A stretch of DNA of 64,000 nucleotides from positions 186,001-250,000 of the forward strand of contig JAFXKI010000007.1 of NCBI GenBank assembly GCA_017531845.1, in the 5' to 3' direction. Below are positions 1-43,058 of this stretch, one piece after another. The notes below the pieces were generated by a model. The model saw nothing but the letters and a program-made list of their open reading frames with translations, did no database searches and had not been told where the DNA came from. This stretch comes from Opitutales bacterium. GTDB taxonomy: Bacteria > Verrucomicrobiota > Verrucomicrobiia > Opitutales > UBA953. The translations under genes and the position numbers were made by a program. Positions within the stretch are counted from its first letter, which is position 1. Each line of letters begins with the position of its first letter.

Positions 1-240
1 AATTGGTGGAACAAACGCGAAGAAATCTCCGTAGACGGCTTTGATAAAGCGAAAAAGTTCTCCGCACGGGAACTCGCCGAAGAACTCGGATTCAACCTCG
101 ACCAATGCGGGTTCCCGCACGCCGAAGAAGAAATTCTCGAGCCTATGGATTTGATTCTGCGCTATCAGGAAAAACGAGCCTCACTCAATGCTGAAATCGA
201 CCGCGTCCTCGCCGAAATCTCTCAAAAACTGAACGCTTAA
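1..240 (+). CDS. hsdM: Type I restriction-modification methyltransferase subunit HsdM, C-terminal end (partial)
   Basis: Frame 1 is open from the window edge to TAA at 238-240, giving 79 residues. The visible tail ends in a helix (LRYQEKRASLNAEIDRVLAE) of the kind that closes N-6 adenine methylases of type I systems. HsdM binds S-adenosylmethionine and methylates adenine in the target chosen by HsdS. The catalytic NPPF motif lies upstream of the window. The call rests mainly on context: an hsdS gene follows 640 bp downstream, separated by a GxxExxY gene. No hsdR is present in the window, so it must lie upstream or be missing. It could be another methylase of the same fold. Confidence 0.7.
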   Translation, partial: NWWNKREEISVDGFDKAKKFSARELAEELGFNLDQCGFPHAEEEILEPMDLILRYQEKRASLNAEIDRVLAEISQKLNA

Positions 241-324
241 AAACGAACACCGATTTAAACAATTCTACTCACTAACGTTGTTCAACTTCTTTAAGCATTA
301 AGCTTTAAGCCCTCATCTTTCCAC

Positions 325-366
325 ACAAGGCGTTAGCCGCGTTAGTAATTGATTTAATTGGAGTTA
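325..366 (+). repeat. 42-bp direct repeat, copy upstream of the GxxExxY gene
   Basis: This stretch, beginning ACAAGGCGTTAGCCGCGTTA, recurs at 831-872 with only three differences. The two copies sit just ahead of the GxxExxY start and just ahead of the hsdS start. Read with the preceding CTAACG element (about 258-275), it is half of an imperfect inverted repeat. The pair brackets the GxxExxY gene like a cassette. Confidence 0.75.
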
Positions 367-385
367 GGAAAATAAAAACAAAATT

Positions 386-793
386 ATGGCAATAAAAGAT
401 AATCCCTTCGCCTATGCGATTTTAGGTTGTGCAATGAAAGTTCATCGAACGCTCGGTTACGGATTTCTCGAAGCCGTTTATGCCGATGCCTTAGAAATCG
501 AGCTTACAAATGCCGGAATTCCGTTTGAGCGAGAAAAAGAAATCCGTGTTTCCTATAACGGACAGATGCTTAAATCCGCCTACCGCGCAGATTTTGTTTG
601 CGGAGAGAATTTCATCGTCGAACTCAAAGCGATAAAAAGTCTTTCCAATATCGAAAAAGCTCAAGTTTTAAACTACGTGAAAGCTACCGATGCGACAGCA
701 GCTTTGCTCATCAATTTCGGTTCAACTTCTTTGCAGTACGAATACTTAACACCCCAAAAAAGAAACTCCGATTTGACCAATTCTGCTCGCTAA
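386..793 (+). CDS. GxxExxY family protein
   Basis: This 135-residue protein carries the family signature GYGFLEAVY near residues 24-32. A later D...ExK arrangement (ADFVCGENFIVELKA, about residues 69-83) resembles the PD-(D/E)xK nuclease core. The family is widespread and of unknown function; a nuclease-like fold is a prediction, not a demonstrated activity. The gene lies between hsdM and hsdS, an unusual position inside a type I operon, and is bracketed by 42-bp direct repeats. That suggests insertion of a small cassette. ATG at 386 is preceded by an A-rich leader without a Shine-Dalgarno site. The gene contains none of the GGGAACG motifs that pepper the rest of the window. Confidence 0.8.
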   Translation: MAIKDNPFAYAILGCAMKVHRTLGYGFLEAVYADALEIELTNAGIPFEREKEIRVSYNGQMLKSAYRADFVCGENFIVELKAIKSLSNIEKAQVLNYVKATDATAALLINFGSTSLQYEYLTPQKRNSDLTNSAR

Positions 794-802
794 CGCTACG
801 CC
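764..802 (+). repeat. Inverted partner of the GxxExxY-flanking repeat
   Basis: AACTCCGATTTGACCAATTC at 764-783, continuing to GCTAACGCTACGCC, is imperfectly complementary to 831-872, which ends AATCGGAGTT. The pair can fold into a long hairpin spanning the end of the GxxExxY gene. A reverse-oriented relative lies at 5272-5309. Confidence 0.65.
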
Positions 803-830
803 GAATAAAAATAGAAATCATTCAAAAAAA

Positions 831-872
831 ACAAGGCGTTAGCCGCGTTAGAAATTGATTCAATCGGAGTTA
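831..872 (+). repeat. 42-bp direct repeat, copy upstream of hsdS
   Basis: This is the second copy of the repeat at 325-366, with 39 of 42 bases matching. Together the copies would allow loss of the GxxExxY gene by recombination, restoring a direct hsdM-hsdS junction. Confidence 0.75.
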
Positions 873-883
873 AATCTAAAAAA

Positions 884-2383
884 ATGACACCGCAAGAGCT
901 CAAAAATTCCATTCTTCAACTTGCTGTTCAAGGCAAGCTCGTCCCGCAACGTCCCGAAGAAGGCTCCGCCGAAGAACTCCTCGCCGCCATCCGCGCCCAA
1001 AAACAATCTTCAGACTCTCGTAGCACCGTAAAAAAGAAAAAGAGCTCTCACAAAGACACGGAGACACAGTGCGACGTTCCCGCCGACGAGATCCCCTTCG
1101 AAATCCCCGCCTCATGGAAATGGGTAAGGATTGGAGATTATTGCCCTAATATGTTTAGCGGGAAATCCCCCAAATACACAAAAATTGAAACACCATATAA
1201 AATCATTGGACAAGCAGCAAACCAACCTACAGGGCTTGATTACAGACAGATAAAGTTTACAACTAGAGAATTTTGGGAAAGTATGGATGAAGAATACTTC
1301 CTCAGAAAAAACGATGTTCTGCTCAACACTCTTGGGAACGGGACTCTTGGTCGTTCTGGGCTTGTTTTATCGTTACCTCAAAATCTTCTAACCGACGGAC
1401 ACTTGTTTGTGTTTAGATTTGGAAATGAAACCGCCTCAAAATTCTTTTATTACTTTTTGCAGGGGAAAAAATCTGAAATTGAAAAATCTGCAAATGGATC
1501 AACGAATCAAACTTTTTTATCATTAAGTAAAGTACGACAGTGGCTCATTCCTCTTCCGCCGCTTGCGGAGCAGAAACGCATTGTCGCGAAAATTGAGGAG
1601 TTGTTGCCGCTTTGCGAACGCTACGGGAACACCTACAACGAATTGCAAGTGCTCAACAAGCGCGTTCCCGGCGATTTGCAAAAATCACTGCTTCAACTTG
1701 CCGTCCAAGGCAAGCTTGTCCCGCAACGTCCCGAAGAAGGCTCCGCCGAAGAACTCCTCGCCGCCATCCGCGCCGAAAAACAAAAACTCTTAAAAGCGGG
1801 AAAAATAAAAAAAGAAAAGCTGCTACCGGAAATATCAGATGATGAAATCCCTTTCGATATCCCTGAAAATTGGTGTTTTACTCATATTGGGGAGCTTTTC
1901 TTGCACAATACAGGAAAAGCTCAAAATGCATTAGGTTCTCCAAATGGTGTAGTTCGAAAATTTATTACGACCTCAAACTTATACTGGAATCGTTTCGATT
2001 TTTCAAAAGTGAAGAAAATGCCATTTACGGAGCAAGAATTAAAACGCTGTACGGTTTGCAAAGGAGACTTACTTATTTGTGAAGGTGGAGATTACGGAAG
2101 GGCTGCGGTATGGAATTTTGACGAAGAAGTTTGCATTCAAAATCATGTCCACAGATTAAGACCTTATAAGGAAATCTGCATAAACTACTTTTATTACATT
2201 TTTTATCTCTACAAAAACACAGGAAGACTTAAAGGTCGTGGAGTTGGAATTCAAGGGCTATCAAACGATGCTCTTCACAAAATTCTCATTCCTCTTCCTC
2301 CGCTTGCGGAGCAAAAACGCATTGTAGCTAAGCTCGAAGAACTCCTCCCGCTTTGCGATCGGCTTTCCCTATTACAGGGCTAA
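884..2383 (+). CDS. hsdS: Type I restriction-modification specificity subunit HsdS
   Basis: This 499-residue protein has the two-fold layout of HsdS. A short repeat (LQLAVQGKLVPQRPEEGSAE) occurs near residues 11-40 and again near 270-300. Each is followed by a target-recognition domain, about 70-225 and 315-475, and each half ends with PLPPLAEQKRIVAK. HsdS sets the DNA sequence recognised by the HsdM and HsdR subunits. The recognition domains are clearly richer in A+T than the repeats, as expected for exchangeable parts. The 84-bp coding repeats at 914-997 and 1691-1774 differ at only three positions. A short serine/lysine-rich linker (about residues 45-65) contains a copy of an intergenic repeat. 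The start ATG at 884 sets a full-length N-terminal repeat. Confidence 0.92.
   Translation: MTPQELKNSILQLAVQGKLVPQRPEEGSAEELLAAIRAQKQSSDSRSTVKKKKSSHKDTETQCDVPADEIPFEIPASWKWVRIGDYCPNMFSGKSPKYTKIETPYKIIGQAANQPTGLDYRQIKFTTREFWESMDEEYFLRKNDVLLNTLGNGTLGRSGLVLSLPQNLLTDGHLFVFRFGNETASKFFYYFLQGKKSEIEKSANGSTNQTFLSLSKVRQWLIPLPPLAEQKRIVAKIEELLPLCERYGNTYNELQVLNKRVPGDLQKSLLQLAVQGKLVPQRPEEGSAEELLAAIRAEKQKLLKAGKIKKEKLLPEISDDEIPFDIPENWCFTHIGELFLHNTGKAQNALGSPNGVVRKFITTSNLYWNRFDFSKVKKMPFTEQELKRCTVCKGDLLICEGGDYGRAAVWNFDEEVCIQNHVHRLRPYKEICINYFYYIFYLYKNTGRLKGRGVGIQGLSNDALHKILIPLPPLAEQKRIVAKLEELLPLCDRLSLLQG
914..997 (+). repeat. 84-bp intragenic direct repeat of hsdS, first copy
   Basis: It matches 1691-1774 at 81 of 84 positions, including synonymous sites. 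Such near-identity at DNA level goes beyond protein constraint and suggests recent gene conversion or domain shuffling. Confidence 0.85.
1045..1073 (+). repeat. Interspersed CACGGAGACAC-type repeat inside hsdS
   Basis: The stretch CACAAAGACACGGAGACACA (1049-1068) has the look of the A/G-rich spacer repeats seen at 8795-8867, 33052-33315 and 42900-42984, but lies in frame in the hsdS linker. It encodes SHKDTETQ and is followed at once by a GGGAACG-type motif (1075-1081). Confidence 0.5.
1691..1774 (+). repeat. 84-bp intragenic direct repeat of hsdS, second copy
   Basis: Second copy of the repeat at 914-997, at the junction between the two halves of HsdS. Confidence 0.85.
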
Positions 2384-2434
2384 GCGTTTTCTACACCTTC
2401 CTATTTGACTCATTTCCCAAATCAAAAACACTAA

Positions 2435-3763
2435 ATGAACATTCCCTCTCCTCTTTCATCAGAGTCGCTAAAAAGAATATTTAAATCTAACCCCTCGACC
2501 CCAGACAGAATAAATACTCGCGAAAGCTCTACTGTGGAATTCAAGGAGACCTATAATCATAGTTCCATGGCAGCATATTTCAAAACAATCGCTGCGTTTG
2601 CAAATAATTCAGGCGGGTATCTTGTGTTCGGAATTGGAGACAGCCCGCGTAGCTTATTGGGATTAAACGAGAAATCGCTTAAACAATTTGAAGACCTAAG
2701 AGTAGAAGACTTTTCTAAAAATCTTTTAGATTATTTTTCCTCTGAAATTCGCTGGGATCACATAACCTTTGAATTCGAACACAAGCAATACGGAATTATC
2801 TATGTGTTCCCAGCAAGCAGGAAACCTTGCATTTGCAAAAAAAATCACGAGGAAAAAAGCACAAAACACTCACTAAAAGAAGGGGACATTTACTACCGAT
2901 ACGGAGGACGGTCCGAAAAAATTAGATACCCAGAATTGCAGGCTATTATTGATAATACAAGAAAGTCTGAAGAACAAATGTGGATGCAACTCATTAAAAA
3001 TATTGCCAAAATCGGTGTTGAAAATACAGCTCTTTTAGACTTGGACGCCGGGAAAATAACGGGACAAGGCGGAACAATACTAATCGACGAAGAATTAATT
3101 TCTAAAGTAGCATTTATAAAAGAAGGAGAATTCGTTGAAACAGAAGGGAAGCCTACACTTCGGCTCATAGGAGATGTAACGAAGTTGGACACCGGAAAAG
3201 TCATCGTAAAAGAACACACGCAAAAAATCCCTAAAGCGATAGAGCCAGGAGATATCGTAAAGTCTTTTCTCTTGGGAGAAAAAGTTAGCACCCCGGAAGA
3301 ATACATAAAGGTAATTTGTTCGTCCAATACGGCAAATTATCCGATTTATTTTTCCTTCAGAAGCTCAAATATCCAAGCCGAAGATGCAATTTCGATTGCA
3401 GAAGGAATAACGTCTCGAGGAACAGCTAAAAAATCACTTATAAAGCGTCTTCAAGGAAAGAGGATTGAAATGAAGCCACTTCCTAAAACTCAAAATACTT
3501 CAGCGAAAGAAAAAACGAACTACGCTGAAGCGTGGATACGAGAAGAAATTTCAACCAATTTTAGAGGCAATAGCTTAAACTACTGTATTGATGCATTACT
3601 TTCATTAGACGCGGATCAAATAAAAAAACACGAGAAATATATCCGAGCAATCTTGCTCAAAATATTCAACGAGTATTTTGAAACCTCTAATCAGAACGTC
3701 GCAAGCAATATGCGAAAAGCAATTTGTCGCATAGACGAAGTAATGCACGCTCCTCCAACCTAG
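2435..3763 (+). CDS. AlbA_2 (Schlafen-type) domain protein
   Basis: This 442-residue protein has an N-terminal AlbA_2 domain, roughly residues 28-160. The signature is VEFKETYNH followed by IAAFANNSGGYLVFGIGD, the EFK and AFaNs-GG-LvfGi pattern of that family. In bacteria this domain occurs in transcription regulators and in proteins encoded near defence systems; it is related to the RNase core of Schlafen proteins. The remaining 280 residues match nothing I recognise. The gene starts 51 bp after hsdS on the same strand and ends by sharing its stop with the convergent KAP gene: both stops lie in CTAG at 3760-3763. It is A+T-rich and contains no GGGAACG motif. A role accessory to the type I system is inference only. 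Confidence 0.75.
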   Translation: MNIPSPLSSESLKRIFKSNPSTPDRINTRESSTVEFKETYNHSSMAAYFKTIAAFANNSGGYLVFGIGDSPRSLLGLNEKSLKQFEDLRVEDFSKNLLDYFSSEIRWDHITFEFEHKQYGIIYVFPASRKPCICKKNHEEKSTKHSLKEGDIYYRYGGRSEKIRYPELQAIIDNTRKSEEQMWMQLIKNIAKIGVENTALLDLDAGKITGQGGTILIDEELISKVAFIKEGEFVETEGKPTLRLIGDVTKLDTGKVIVKEHTQKIPKAIEPGDIVKSFLLGEKVSTPEEYIKVICSSNTANYPIYFSFRSSNIQAEDAISIAEGITSRGTAKKSLIKRLQGKRIEMKPLPKTQNTSAKEKTNYAEAWIREEISTNFRGNSLNYCIDALLSLDADQIKKHEKYIRAILLKIFNEYFETSNQNVASNMRKAICRIDEVMHAPPT

Positions 3764-5184
3764 GGAATACTTTTTGTGGAAATTAAATCCATCCGGCGCG
3801 ATAACTCAATTAGAGATTCCCGACAGATACCTTCTGCGCTTTGTATGTAGGATGAAAGTTCATTTAGGTCGTTATCGGAAAGTTTTTTTATAATGTTTGC
3901 TACTCCAGGCATGTCTCTTATTGATTTTCCATCTTTAATCGCCCGAACAACAGGAGTTTCGGAAACTCCACTTCTGGGAAGCGCCCACTTAAAGGACGCA
4001 TATATTGCGGCAAGGAGAATCAAAATAATTCCCCTGCTTTTCTCCTGGTTTATTGAAGAAAATAGCCAATCCGCGATTTCGTCCGGAGTCGTGTTCCCGT
4101 CAATCCACCGCCTGTACAAGGATGAATTTTTTAGTTTTACAATAATCAATGGCGCCACAAGTTGAGGCCACGTTCTAATATGTGGAGCTGTCATCCTCAT
4201 GATTAGAGTGTAAAGTTTTAGACAATGCTCTATTTCTCGTAAAGAAAAGCTCAATGACTTTAGTGAATCTGCCATCAATGAGTAAAACACTTGTCCTTCT
4301 CTGACATCTCCATATAAACCTGCAGGATAAGAATTTGCCTTTTGAACTAAATGTTCCGGGAGCTTGTATTTCCCCCACAAGTTATAGAAAAATCGATCTT
4401 GGTTTGTTTGTGGCAAATGAACATCGAAATCAATAAATCGGTGTAAGTAATTTTCCACATCGATGTTTCCGTAAACGGATTGAATGACGTGCCCAAGCTG
4501 TTCGCGGTCGATTCCCAAAACAAAAATGACGTGATCGATATCGAAAAGGTGCTTTATGCGTTCGAGGACTTTTACTGCGAAATCCGGCCGGCAACGGTCG
4601 AGTTCATCCACGATGTAAATCAGCGGTTTCCCGGTTTCTTCGTAAACCTTATTTGCAAGCGTTTGTAGCTTTTTACGAAAATCATCTCGTGCTTCCGTTT
4701 GTGAAATATATTCGTCAAAAGCCGTTCCGGTGCCTTTATCCCAACTTTCTTTTATGACCTTCGAAAAATCAATCCCGCATCCTTTTTCAATTACCCCATT
4801 TAGAAAAGAAAGGAAGGTGTTTTTTACCAAATCCCCCGCAGATTTTTTAACATCCAAGCAGAGCCCGCGAAGACCAATCTCTTTAAGCGCCATTAATAGC
4901 TGTCCGACAATGGCGATTAGCGGATCGTCGAGGCAATCGTCTTTCCACGCGTTGAAGTAAACGACTTCGTATCCGGATTTTTTCAGGGATTGCTCCCAAC
5001 GGCGCAGGAAAAATGTCTTTCCGGTTCCCCACGCGCCGTTGACTCCGATAGTCAAAGCCGCCGTTTGGTTTTCCAAAAACTTTGTTAATGTTTCCGCGCA
5101 AAATTTACGCTCAAGCGCATCGTCTTCCCACGGATTATTTTCGTTAATTTCTGCTTCGGCTAATTTGATTTGAGGATTTTCCAT
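3760..5184 (-). CDS. KAP family P-loop NTPase
   Basis: This 474-residue protein has a Walker A motif GAWGTGKT at residues 50-57 and a Walker B motif LIYIVDELDRC at about 188-198. Both have the form typical of KAP NTPases (STAND/AAA-like). Many KAP proteins carry membrane segments within the NTPase; here the only clear hydrophobic stretch is GIILILLAAIYASFKWAL near residues 385-403, so membrane anchoring is uncertain. KAP NTPases occur in phage-defence loci and in membrane signalling, and the function here is unknown. The gene is convergent with the AlbA_2 gene and overlaps it by 4 bp. It lacks the GGGAACG motif throughout, like the AlbA_2 gene, suggesting joint acquisition. Confidence 0.85.
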   Translation of the reverse strand: MENPQIKLAEAEINENNPWEDDALERKFCAETLTKFLENQTAALTIGVNGAWGTGKTFFLRRWEQSLKKSGYEVVYFNAWKDDCLDDPLIAIVGQLLMALKEIGLRGLCLDVKKSAGDLVKNTFLSFLNGVIEKGCGIDFSKVIKESWDKGTGTAFDEYISQTEARDDFRKKLQTLANKVYEETGKPLIYIVDELDRCRPDFAVKVLERIKHLFDIDHVIFVLGIDREQLGHVIQSVYGNIDVENYLHRFIDFDVHLPQTNQDRFFYNLWGKYKLPEHLVQKANSYPAGLYGDVREGQVFYSLMADSLKSLSFSLREIEHCLKLYTLIMRMTAPHIRTWPQLVAPLIIVKLKNSSLYRRWIDGNTTPDEIADWLFSSINQEKSRGIILILLAAIYASFKWALPRSGVSETPVVRAIKDGKSIRDMPGVANIIKKLSDNDLNELSSYIQSAEGICRESLIELSRRMDLISTKSIP

Positions 5185-5271
5185 TCCAAGTAAATTTTAA
5201 GAGAAATGGAAAACTGATGCTTACCGCATGCCAAGTTTCAAACAATTTCGTCTTAAAAAAACGTAATTACC

Positions 5272-5309
5272 GCGTAGCGTTAGCGAGCAAAATCGGAGCA
5301 ATCGGAGTT
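5272..5309 (-). repeat. Third copy of the GxxExxY-flanking repeat, inverted
   Basis: On the minus strand this reads AACTCCGATT...TTTTGCTCGCTAACGCTACGC, closely matching 764-802. It lies between the KAP gene and fumarase, so members of the repeat family occur at both ends of the 1-5.3 kb island. Confidence 0.6.
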
Positions 5310-5323
5310 CTTTTCCCGAAAAC

Positions 5324-5368
5324 AAAAAAGCGTTCCCGCGCGGCGAAAGCCGATTTTTGCGGGAACGC
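5324..5368 (-). terminator. Intrinsic terminator of fumarase built from a GCGGGAACGC inverted pair
   Basis: On the minus strand GCGTTCCCGC pairs with GCGGGAACGC (10 bp), with an inner CGGC/GCCG stem, followed by TTTTTT. The outer arms are the window-wide iterated motif in head-to-head arrangement. Confidence 0.85.
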
Positions 5369-5391
5369 TCTTTAAGCGTTAAGCTCTAATT

Positions 5392-7041
5392 TTAAGCTTT
5401 CCGGCTCATCGGGCAAACGGGTTTGATTTGTTTGAAGAAGTCGTTGCCCTTGTCGTCGACCAAAATGAACGCCGGGAAGTTTTCGACTTCGATTTTCCAA
5501 ATCGCTTCCATGCCGAGTTCCGGATATTCGACGCATTCAATCGACTTGATGTTGTTCTGCGCGAGAATTGCCGCCGGGCCGCCGATCGAGCCGAGGTAGA
5601 ATCCGCCGTGTTTTTTACACGCATCCGTTACCTGCTGGCTGCGATTGCCCTTGGCAAGCATGATGAGCGAACCGCCGTTGGCTTGGAACAAATCGACGTA
5701 GGAGTCCATGCGTCCCGCCGTCGTCGGTCCCATCGAGCCGCACGCCATTCCCTCCGGAGTTTTTGCCGGTCCCGCGTAGTAAATCGGGTGGTCTTTGATG
5801 TATTGCGGGAGCGCTTCGCCGCGGTCGAGGCGTTCTTTCAGTTTTGCGTGCGCGATGTCGCGTCCGACGATAATCGTGCCGTTGAGCGAAAGGCGTGTCG
5901 CGACCGGATATTTGGAAAGTTCCTTGAGGATTTCCGGCATCGGGCGGTTGAGGTCAATTTTAACGGCGTTGCCTTCGCCGGCTTCGCGGAGTTCTTCCGG
6001 AATGAGTTCGCCGGGATTGTCGTCGAGTTTTTCAATCCAAATGCCGTCTTTATTGATTTTGCACTTAATGTTGCGGTCTGCGGAGCAGGAAACGCCCATG
6101 CCGACCGGGCAACTCGCGCCGTGGCGCGGAAGGCGGACGATGCGCACGTCGTGCACGAGGTATTTCCCGCCGAACTGCGCGCCGAGCCCGATGCGATGCG
6201 CTTCTTCGAGCACCTGTTTTTCGAGTTCGACATCGCGGAAGGCGCGTCCGTGCTCGTTCCCGCTGGTCGGAAGTTCGTCGTAGTAGTGCGTCGAAGCGAG
6301 TTTGACCGTGAGAAGATTTTTTTCCGCCGAAGTGCCGCCGATGCAGAATGCCACGTGATACGGCGGGCAAGCTGCGGTGCCGAGCGTTTTCATTTTTTCG
6401 ACGAGGAACGGAACAAGCGTTTTCGGGTTCAGAAGCGCTTTCGTTTCCTGATAAAGATAGGTTTTGTTCGCGCTCCCGCCGCCCTTGGTCACGCACAGGA
6501 ATTTGTATTCCATGCCTTCGGTGGCTTCGAGGTCGATTTGCGCGGGAAGATTGCAACGCGTGTTGACTTCGTCATACATATTCAGCGGTGCGTTTTGCGA
6601 ATAGCGCAGATTTTCCTCCGTGTAGGTTTTGAAAACGCCGAGCGAAAGCGCTTCTTCGTCGCAGTAGCCCGTCCAAACCTGCTGTCCTTTTTCGCCGTGA
6701 ATAATCGCCGTTCCCGTGTCCTGGCAGAGCGGGAGCTTCCCTTTGCAGGCGACTTCCGCGTTGCGCAAGAACGTGAGCGCGACGTATTTGTCGTTTTCGC
6801 TCGCTTCCGGGTCGCGGAGAATTTTGGCGACCTGCTCGTTGTGTGCGCGGCGGAGCATGAAAGAAACATCGCGAAACGCGGCATTCGCCATCGCGGTCAA
6901 GCCTTCCTTGGCAACTTTGAGCACGGGAACGCCTTCAAATTCGCCGACGGAAACGTAGTCCTTAGTCAGAAGATAATACTCGGTTTTGTCTTCACCGAGC
7001 GGGAACGGGTGTTGATATTTGAAAGGAGGAATATTTGCCAT
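5392..7041 (-). CDS. fum: Fumarate hydratase class I (iron-sulfur)
   Basis: Catalyses reversible hydration of fumarate to malate in the cytoplasm. This 549-residue protein matches the class I (FumA/FumB-type) single-chain fumarases. The [4Fe-4S] ligand region [12 protein letters not shown] places a cysteine at residue 106, where E. coli FumA has Cys105. Further expected segments are [23 protein letters not shown] and the C-terminal [21 protein letters not shown] at 7041 ([18 protein letters not shown]) fits family starts; a GTG at 7101 would add 20 residues of low-complexity sequence and is rejected. The cluster makes the enzyme oxygen-sensitive, in keeping with pflB elsewhere in the window. 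A motif-based terminator follows. Confidence 0.95.
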
Positions 7042-8794: not shown

Positions 8795-8867
8795 AATCTC
8801 GCGCGAAGACGCTAAGACGCAAAAGTTTTTTTTCACAAATGCTTCGCGGCTTAGCGGGCTCGCGCTC
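8795..8867. repeat. Intergenic GACGCTAAGACGC-type repeat
   Basis: CGCGAAGACGCTAAGACGCA and, further on, CTTCGCGGCTTAGCG form a loose inverted repeat. The same words recur at 33276-33315 (CTTCGCGGCTTAGCGTCTTG) and 50718-50757. Three such tracts lie just beyond the terminators of the three PEP-CTERM genes. Confidence 0.5.
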
Positions 8868-8942: not shown

Positions 8943-9710
8943 TTATTTGCGGCGGCGACGCGATGCCACGAGCGCAAGTGCGCCGAGCCCCGCAAGCATT
9001 CCGAACGCCGACGGCTCGGGGACTGGAGCAGCCGTTCCCATGTGCGCCGTTATGTCATCGACACCGCTAATCACGGAATCCGAAGTGAAAATAGTCAGAT
9101 CAGCAATCCAGCCGTTGAACGTTTCACGAGCGGAGCCGGAATTGCCGGAGCCGATTGCAAAAGTTTGATCACTCGCGCTGGGTAGCGCAAATCCGCCCAA
9201 ATTACGCGTGTAGAAATTATTGTTAGACGTACCGCAAATATACTTTGCTCCGTTTGCGGCGTCATTCCCGCCTTTAAACGAAATCCCGACCAACGTCCAA
9301 GTATTTGCCGTAAGACCAACATTCGCCGTCTCTTTATCTGCGACACCCTTTGCCGTGTACTGCAAACCGGCTCCGTTCGTGCAGAATTTAAAACCGTTTT
9401 GCTGTGCACCATAGCCGAAAATTGACTCTACGTCATTCGTATCATCCATCTTAATCCACGCAGCGATCGTGATATATTTCGACGAATCGGCAAGAGCATC
9501 ATTGAGGTCTTTATTCGTAATGCCACCGATATAAGTTCCGTCCCCGAAGCTGTAAGTCGTTACCGACATATCTTCAATTTTCGTCGCCGTGTTTGTTGTT
9601 GCAGAAGCGACTAATGCATCCATCGAAACCAACTCGGTAAGCGTCGTTGCCGCATTAGCGCAGGCGGTTCCTGCGGCGAGGAGAGCCGCGAGTGTGATGT
9701 ATTTTTTCAT
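8943..9710 (-). CDS. PEP-CTERM protein with LamG-like domain
   Basis: A 255-residue secreted protein. A signal peptide (MKKYITLAALLAAGTACANA) starts at the ATG at 9710; an upstream non-ATG extension is rejected because it would bury the signal. The central part (ITIAAWIKMDDTN, TWTLVGISFKGG, FNGWIADLTIF) has the pattern of concanavalin A-like/LamG beta-sandwich domains, which bind glycans or proteins. The C-terminus VPEPSAFGMLAGLGALALVA plus RRRRK is a PEP-CTERM sorting signal: PEP box, transmembrane helix and basic tail. It is processed by an exosortase, which is not in this window. The 3' end and terminator closely match those of the gene at 33391. Confidence 0.88.
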   Translation of the reverse strand: MKKYITLAALLAAGTACANAATTLTELVSMDALVASATTNTATKIEDMSVTTYSFGDGTYIGGITNKDLNDALADSSKYITIAAWIKMDDTNDVESIFGYGAQQNGFKFCTNGAGLQYTAKGVADKETANVGLTANTWTLVGISFKGGNDAANGAKYICGTSNNNFYTRNLGGFALPSASDQTFAIGSGNSGSARETFNGWIADLTIFTSDSVISGVDDITAHMGTAAPVPEPSAFGMLAGLGALALVASRRRRK

Positions 9711-9874
9711 AGATTTACAATAATGTTTGAGTGTTAAAAAAGTATTAAAGGAATCGGGCAAACGGGCGTTTCCGCCGATTTGTCCCAATTATTAACGCGG
9801 ATTGTCGCAAAAAAAAAAAGTCTCCGTCAAGCATATTTTTGAAAAAAAAAAAAAGCGTATATTTAGCCGCGCTT

Positions 9875-33033: not shown

Positions 33034-33315
33034 CGGGGCTTAAAAAATTTCTCACGGAAACACAAAACACGGCAGGAAGGAATTTTTGTTGCGGAACGTT
33101 CCCGTGCGCAGAGAAGAAACCACGAATAAACACTAATATTCACGAATGTTTTTAACGCAAAGAACGCAAAGTTTTGAAAGATTTTTAGATCAAAACAGCT
33201 GCGGATATCTGTTGCATCTGTTCCCCAAAAAAAACAGCCATAAATAAAAAATGCTGTGTCTCTGCGACTCCGCGAGAACCTCTTAAAAAAACTTCGCGGC
33301 TTAGCGTCTTGACGC
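33034..33315. repeat. Gene-free spacer made of CACGGAAACAC and ACGCAAAG-type repeats
   Basis: With the flanking terminators this makes a gap of more than 300 bp between glgP and the second PEP-CTERM gene. It contains TCACGGAAACACAAAACACG, ACGCAAAGAACGCAAAG, TGTGTCTCTGCGACTCCGCG and CTTCGCGGCTTAGCGTCTTG. These words also occur at 8795-8867, 34503-34530 and 42900-42984. One GGGAACG motif lies at 33097-33103. No gene or structured RNA is seen. Confidence 0.5.
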
Positions 33316-33353
33316 GAAAAAAAAACGTTCTCGCAGAAAATTCTACGAGAACG
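33316..33353 (-). terminator. Terminator of the second PEP-CTERM gene with a variant motif
   Basis: The arms read CGTTCTCG and CGAGAACG, a compensated change from the usual CGTTCCCG/CGGGAACG, followed on the minus strand by nine T. Confidence 0.8.
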
Positions 33354-43040: not shown

Positions 43041-43058
43041 TTTAAGCTTTAAGCCTTT

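Follow-up and report, generated by a model that had tools for sequence, protein, structure and literature searches.

A GxxExxY gene between hsdM and hsdS in an Opitutales genome lies in a hairpin-bounded, probably mobile cassette

GxxExxY is a common gene annotation for which, to our knowledge, no function is known. Why one such gene, bracketed by repeats, should stand between the methylase and specificity genes of a type I restriction operon is the question raised by the locus described here. The locus lies at the start of the window, by which we mean the whole 64,000-nucleotide stretch analysed (G000:C5:186001-250000, from the 1.69-Mb genome of an Opitutales bacterium). A first-pass annotation had read it as a non-autonomous mobile unit carrying a putative nuclease-fold protein. 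The features concerned, in window coordinates, are as follows.

1-240, plus strand: 3' end of hsdM (type I methylase), a 503-aa ORF; the whole gene spans G000:C5:184729-186240
246-365, no strand: left hairpin, with a degenerate 5' arm at 247-283 and a 3' arm at 325-366 (z -1.8)
291-311: TTAAGC-type repeat in the loop of the left hairpin
325-366, no strand: upstream copy of the 42-bp direct repeat, which is the 3' arm of the left hairpin; 39/42 positions agree with 831-872
386-793, plus strand: GxxExxY gene, 135 aa, predicted PD-(D/E)XK nuclease fold with E29, D69, E79-x-K81, Q93 and Y97
764-871, no strand: right hairpin, with a 5' arm at about 759-802 (including the gene end) and a 3' arm at 831-872 (z -5.2)
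831-872, no strand: downstream copy of the 42-bp direct repeat, which is the 3' arm of the right hairpin
884-2383, plus strand: hsdS (specificity subunit), separated from hsdM by the cassette
5272-5314, no strand: further single arm, inverted relative to 759-801 and 84% complementary to it
8801-8865, no strand: solo CRCNRAK-type hairpin without a gene, with a CGCGAAGACGCTAAGACGCAAAAG arm (fold z -3.1)

The repeats at this locus are parts of hairpins. The two 42-bp direct copies do differ at three positions, as had been claimed, and a gapped direct alignment of the cassette flanks gave a score of 71, while the best of 500 shuffles reached no more than 27. The inverted partner proposed for the downstream copy (764-802) was confirmed by the fold of 755-876, a hairpin spanning 764-871 which none of 200 shuffles equalled in stability. 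The degenerate arm at 247-283, overlooked in the first-pass annotation, forms a second, weaker hairpin upstream of the gene. One hairpin thus stands on each side of the GxxExxY gene, both with the same orientation, and their 3' arms make up the direct repeats. It had also been overlooked that the gene ends within the right hairpin, its stop codon falling in the 5' arm. The further copy reported at 5272-5309 is likewise present, as the single arm at 5272-5314. A strict search pattern derived from the arm at this locus had no match in G000, because the arms vary, and Rfam gave no match in window positions 1-7000. The gene does lie between hsdM and hsdS, and the type I set is complete, in the order hsdR, hsdM, cassette, hsdS. 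The hsdM-hsdS gap of a relative (L094, hsdM 47% identical) consists of a few bases, without a cassette.

The window protein matched the GxxExxY (TIGR04256) and PDDEXK_3 (PF13366) profiles with E-values of 2e-40 and 2e-38, and its scores lie above the curated cut-offs (137.5 bits vs 35 and 132.1 bits vs 22, respectively). In 49 sequences, E29, D69, E79, K81 and Q93 are invariant and Y97 is nearly so. The residue pattern E, D, ExK and QxxxY is that of Cas4/RecB-type nucleases. The structure model of the protein (pLDDT 91) has its best fold match in the Cas4 protein SSO0001, which ranked first by Foldseek (E 7e-4) and also in the second list of structural matches (Z 10.1, rmsd 6.2, 104 residues). 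A profile search of the PDB with the window protein found no sequence relative. The protein retains a complete Cas4/RecB-like active site, and it is predicted to be a nuclease, much as the first-pass annotation had supposed. The dN/dS values of orthologous GxxExxY pairs (0.07-0.16) indicate purifying selection on the gene.

Does the cassette belong to the restriction operon? G000 holds four GxxExxY loci, two of which are frameshifted. Three of them separate the genes of a pair (hsdM-hsdS, lolC-lolD and fabZ-fabI), and the fourth adjoins a gene for a predicted surface protein. Significant flanking repeats were found at all four loci, with a sequence of their own at each; they are inverted at the lol and fab copies and direct at the other two. 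Since other copies lie at lolC-lolD and fabZ-fabI, the type I restriction operon, while a real position, is an incidental site for the cassette.

Comparison with sister species showed the cassettes to be present or absent at the same sites. The lolC-lolD site is filled in G000, G003, G005 and G006 and empty in G002 and G007. The fabZ-fabI site is filled in G000 and G003 and empty in G002, G005 and G007, and in G006 it holds a hairpin without the gene. The lol arms of G006 form, by eye, a perfect 32-bp inverted repeat. A search for further copies of the window's repeat had a divided outcome: in G000 the exact repeat occurs only at the locus itself, and in G003 the same arms (AACTCCGATT...GCTCGCTAACGCT) accompany a related gene (MAIKDNP..., about 73% identical by eye) at an unrelated site, between sialidase-like and helicase genes. 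At that site the match of G000 is continuous across the junction and free of the cassette. At another site G003 has a hairpin, the gene and a hairpin, with a 105-bp direct repeat; G000 has a single hairpin there, and G005 and G006 have a different hairpin. Between empty and filled sites the spacers have diverged too far for a target-site duplication to be read. Judged from these sequence comparisons, the mobility of the hairpin-bounded cassette is well supported. Sites that are filled in one species and empty in another, the same arms around a related gene elsewhere, and patchy copies all argue for the repeat-bracketed mobile unit that the first-pass annotation had proposed.

The association of gene and hairpin was analyzed in 80 diverse loci from a scan of GTDB species genomes. 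These loci were chosen by conserved peptides and are biased to canonical members, because a narrower alignment replaced the family-wide one, which was too diverse, for the scan. With 200-bp flanks and a score of at least 28, the flanks form an inverted repeat in 67 of the 80 loci (84%) vs 7 of 310 neighbour ORFs on the same contigs. When flanks were paired between loci, 12% gave inverted repeats, a control value that is inflated because the arms are alike across phyla. The gene lies within the hairpin loop at most loci. The family was found in such hairpins in more than 15 phyla, and the 80 loci include Acidobacteria, Verrucomicrobia, Planctomycetes, Bacteroidota, Chloroflexota, Cyanobacteria, Proteobacteria, Spirochaetota, Gemmatimonadetes, Armatimonadetes, Cloacimonadota and methanogenic archaea. 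A natural control for this association is a PF13366 subfamily that has lost the active site (D and ExK replaced): hairpins were found in none of five such loci (L047, L048, L049, L207 and L212), which come from few genera. The neighbours of this subfamily are conserved in two congeners; it is possibly a domesticated, non-catalytic form.

The arms have a common architecture. They usually consist of about three quasi-repeated 9-nt units, CRCNRAK (CACAGAG, CGCAAAG, CACGAAT), spaced 8-11 nt. Their sequences vary from copy to copy, and the units of the window's arms (CTCCGATT) differ from CRCNRAK at one position. Two-unit arms occur at 6.2/kb in the left flank on the plus strand and at 7.2/kb in the right flank on the minus strand, vs 0.1-0.2/kb elsewhere; the density of two-unit matches in the flanks is thus about 40-fold that elsewhere, on the plus strand before the gene and on the minus strand after it. 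This polarity goes with the gene and is independent of the host operon. The CRCNRAK units also form solo hairpins without a gene, with the polarity seen at the gene (49 adjacent plus-minus pairs vs 4 minus-plus pairs, a count that includes pairs near the genes). The arm units are closer to the solo units of their own locus than to those of other loci, to a degree reached in 1 of 2000 shuffles.

The number of hairpins follows the presence of the gene. In the genus of G000, the five gene-bearing congeners have 48-182 three-unit arms per genome, and the three that lack the gene have 4-11. Among 236 genomes of one class, in which absence of the gene was judged on incomplete genomes, the median was 12.6/Mb in the 152 with GxxExxY vs 0.39/Mb in the 84 without it (AUC 0.92; Mann-Whitney p 3e-26 without phylogenetic correction). 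GxxExxY genomes were higher in arms in 13 of the 16 genera that hold both states. The flanks of the gene itself contribute only about two arms per copy to these counts, for which the reversed pattern was used as a control. The counts were also compared against a second gene family, IVP. Genomes with GxxExxY only have 8.0/Mb three-unit arms and those with IVP only have 0.95/Mb; the correlation is therefore not a general effect of repeat-rich genomes. There are exceptions, with many arms and no detected gene in G197, G130, G075 and G103, and few arms with the gene in G057 and G279. In three genomes of one genus (G165, G261 and G266), 365 to 875 three-unit arms were counted. Since hits of the reversed pattern are also many there, these arms may partly be simple tandem repeats. 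The correlation carries no direction, and the hairpins might instead attract the gene.

IVP/S23 genes (PF05635), which encode four-helix bundles, were sampled outside the window (L227-L256) and have inverted-repeat flanks in 27 of 30 loci. Their flank units (TCAGTTG, AGTCGAG, TTAAGCT and similar) differ from CRCNRAK. TTAAGC-type arms like those around the IVP gene of G000 are present in the window at 291-311, 5372-5395 and 43042-43056. Neither an S23 gene nor a nuclease gene is mentioned in a published account of TAACTGA repeats from Beggiatoaceae. Several unlike arm fragments are clustered at 33050-33330 of the window, apparently decayed or nested hairpin elements; the stretches 33105-33289 and 42895-43005 fold no better than shuffles and are debris at most. 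Genes on the minus strand at 2435-3763 and 3760-5184 encode a Schlafen/AlbA_2-domain protein and a KAP NTPase, the latter matching the candidate defence family PDC-S20, and beside the type I system they make up a small defence island. An ORF at 8943-9788, also on the minus strand, has a terminal PEP-CTERM-like sorting signal (VPEPSAFGMLAGLGALALVASRRRRK).

What, then, is the cassette? We consider it to be a mobile GxxExxY element with hairpin ends, whose nuclease spreads or maintains the hairpins, and we assign this reading a probability of roughly 0.58. In this view the GxxExxY gene would be bounded by inverted ends that form hairpins and contain about three quasi-repeated 9-nt units. GxxExxY would recognise the folded ends, either as a hairpin in single-stranded DNA at a fork or as a cruciform, and would cut or trim them. 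By repair or replication, either the unit or, in trans, a solo hairpin would then be copied to another position between genes. A new copy may sometimes land at an existing hairpin and so duplicate it. An insert inside an operon such as hsdM-hsdS may be tolerated because its RNA copy folds as a closed stem. The part of the enzyme in the spread of the hairpins is what we infer from these observations. The master element is best sought among the gene-bearing copies, and the non-autonomous ones among the solo hairpins; the label "non-autonomous" in the first-pass annotation is probably wrong for copies that carry the gene.

There are other possible interpretations of these results. Solo hairpins might be spread by another agent, and the GxxExxY nuclease gene might home into them, the hairpins being cut as structures and the gene being copied in by repair, often with duplication of the hairpin. 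Variation of the arm sequence from copy to copy and the position of the gene in the loop at most loci would agree with such events. The G003 site with its 105-bp direct repeat, compared with the solo hairpin of G000 at the same place, is suggestive only; loss of the gene by recombination between direct repeats accounts equally well for the latter. If another agent spread the hairpins, however, their near absence where the gene is absent would not be expected. Moreover, the window copy and its G003 counterpart have gene and arm sequence in common at different sites; gene and ends therefore also travel together. We consider this order of events unlikely. It is less probable still that another enzyme (RAYT or another transposase) or replication slippage disperses the hairpins, with GxxExxY as a cargo that has no role in movement. 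Small repeats are able to spread without an enzyme of their own, as is established for MITEs. Against this reading, one gene family lies in these hairpins in more than 15 phyla. Nor does it agree with three-unit arm counts that track GxxExxY and not the IVP family, with active-site-less relatives that have no hairpins, or with purifying selection on the gene.

Two further explanations concern the host operon, and both were rejected. The hairpins could be signals for processing or attenuation of the operon RNA, and GxxExxY a conserved, immobile operon gene such as a restriction helper. Copies do lie inside operons, and the transcript would fold, the right hairpin being far more stable than shuffles. 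This explanation is nevertheless disfavoured by the empty sites in congeners, and it is very improbable given that the operon differs between copies, that the arm polarity follows the gene, whatever the host operon, and that the cassette-free hsdM-hsdS junction of relatives (L094) has only a few bases. The direct repeats could also serve the shuffling of the specificity gene, as the cassette adjoins hsdS, which has internal repeats of its own (903-1006 and 1680-1783, 92%). These lie at the start of each hsdS half, however, as in two-domain specificity subunits, which carry repeats at these positions. The idea is contradicted by the absence of the cassette repeats from hsdS and by cassettes of the same kind at unrelated genes, and it seems hardly credible.

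The pairing of gene and hairpin in many bacterial and some archaeal phyla suggests that the mobile GxxExxY element belongs to a widespread family of small mobile elements. A broader proposal, which we hold tentatively and at a little under even odds, is that GxxExxY proteins are the mobility enzymes of an unrecognised class of hairpin elements in Bacteria and some Archaea, acting on the structure of the ends and not on any one fixed sequence of them, and moving solo hairpins in trans, with IVP (S23) as a parallel class that has its own repeat unit. If this is true, the GxxExxY family would gain a role in the mobility or upkeep of hairpin elements, and a whole class of intergenic hairpins would gain an enzyme. 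A REPIN-like partnership of gene and hairpin would have arisen with an unrelated nuclease, and the puzzle of the 23S rRNA intervening sequences would join a wider class of hairpin-bounded genes. Within a literature search whose coverage of subscription journals was thin, we found neither a study that links GxxExxY to repeats nor one in which the arm sequences are printed; this absence of a prior description is weak evidence of novelty.

The cassette was compared with known systems. The window gene clearly belongs to TIGR04256 and PF13366, entries that are named after a motif and a fold; the hairpin cassette is not described in the literature found under the name GxxExxY. Fold and residues (E, D, ExK, QxxxY) are shared with Cas4/RecB-type nucleases, but GxxExxY is much shorter and has no helicase; no cas genes were present among the neighbours read. 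Homing endonuclease genes are likewise nuclease genes with a patchy distribution at defined sites, whereas here there is no single recognition sequence, the arms vary and solo hairpins are abundant. Inverted ends are a feature of insertion sequences and MITEs alike, and the solo hairpins are, like MITEs, short non-coding units; no transposase family was found whose ends match. The intervening sequences of 23S rRNA contain a small S23/IVP ORF in a stem-loop of terminal inverted repeats, occur sporadically and have been called selfish (PMC4990558). The cassette shares with them the small ORF in the loop of such a stem and the patchy occurrence. It differs in that S23/IVP is a four-helix bundle and not a nuclease, in its repeat unit, and in its location between protein genes (hsdM-hsdS) instead of in 23S rRNA. 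REPINs are inverted doublets of REP sequences that fold into hairpins, and RAYTs are reported to be single-copy genes (PMC3116915). As in the REP/REPIN-RAYT (TnpA-REP) system, short intergenic hairpins, mostly without a gene, accompany a gene that has these repeats on either side, and the number of gene-less hairpins goes with the associated gene. Unlike that system, the enzyme is of the PD-(D/E)XK type (PDDEXK_3) and not an HUH/Y1 transposase, the arms consist of about three 9-nt units, and the gene usually lies inside the hairpin, in several diverged copies per genome. We therefore assign the cassette to neither REPIN-RAYT nor the 23S rRNA intervening sequences. By analogy, the GxxExxY element may work in the manner of REPIN-RAYT, with an unrelated enzyme.
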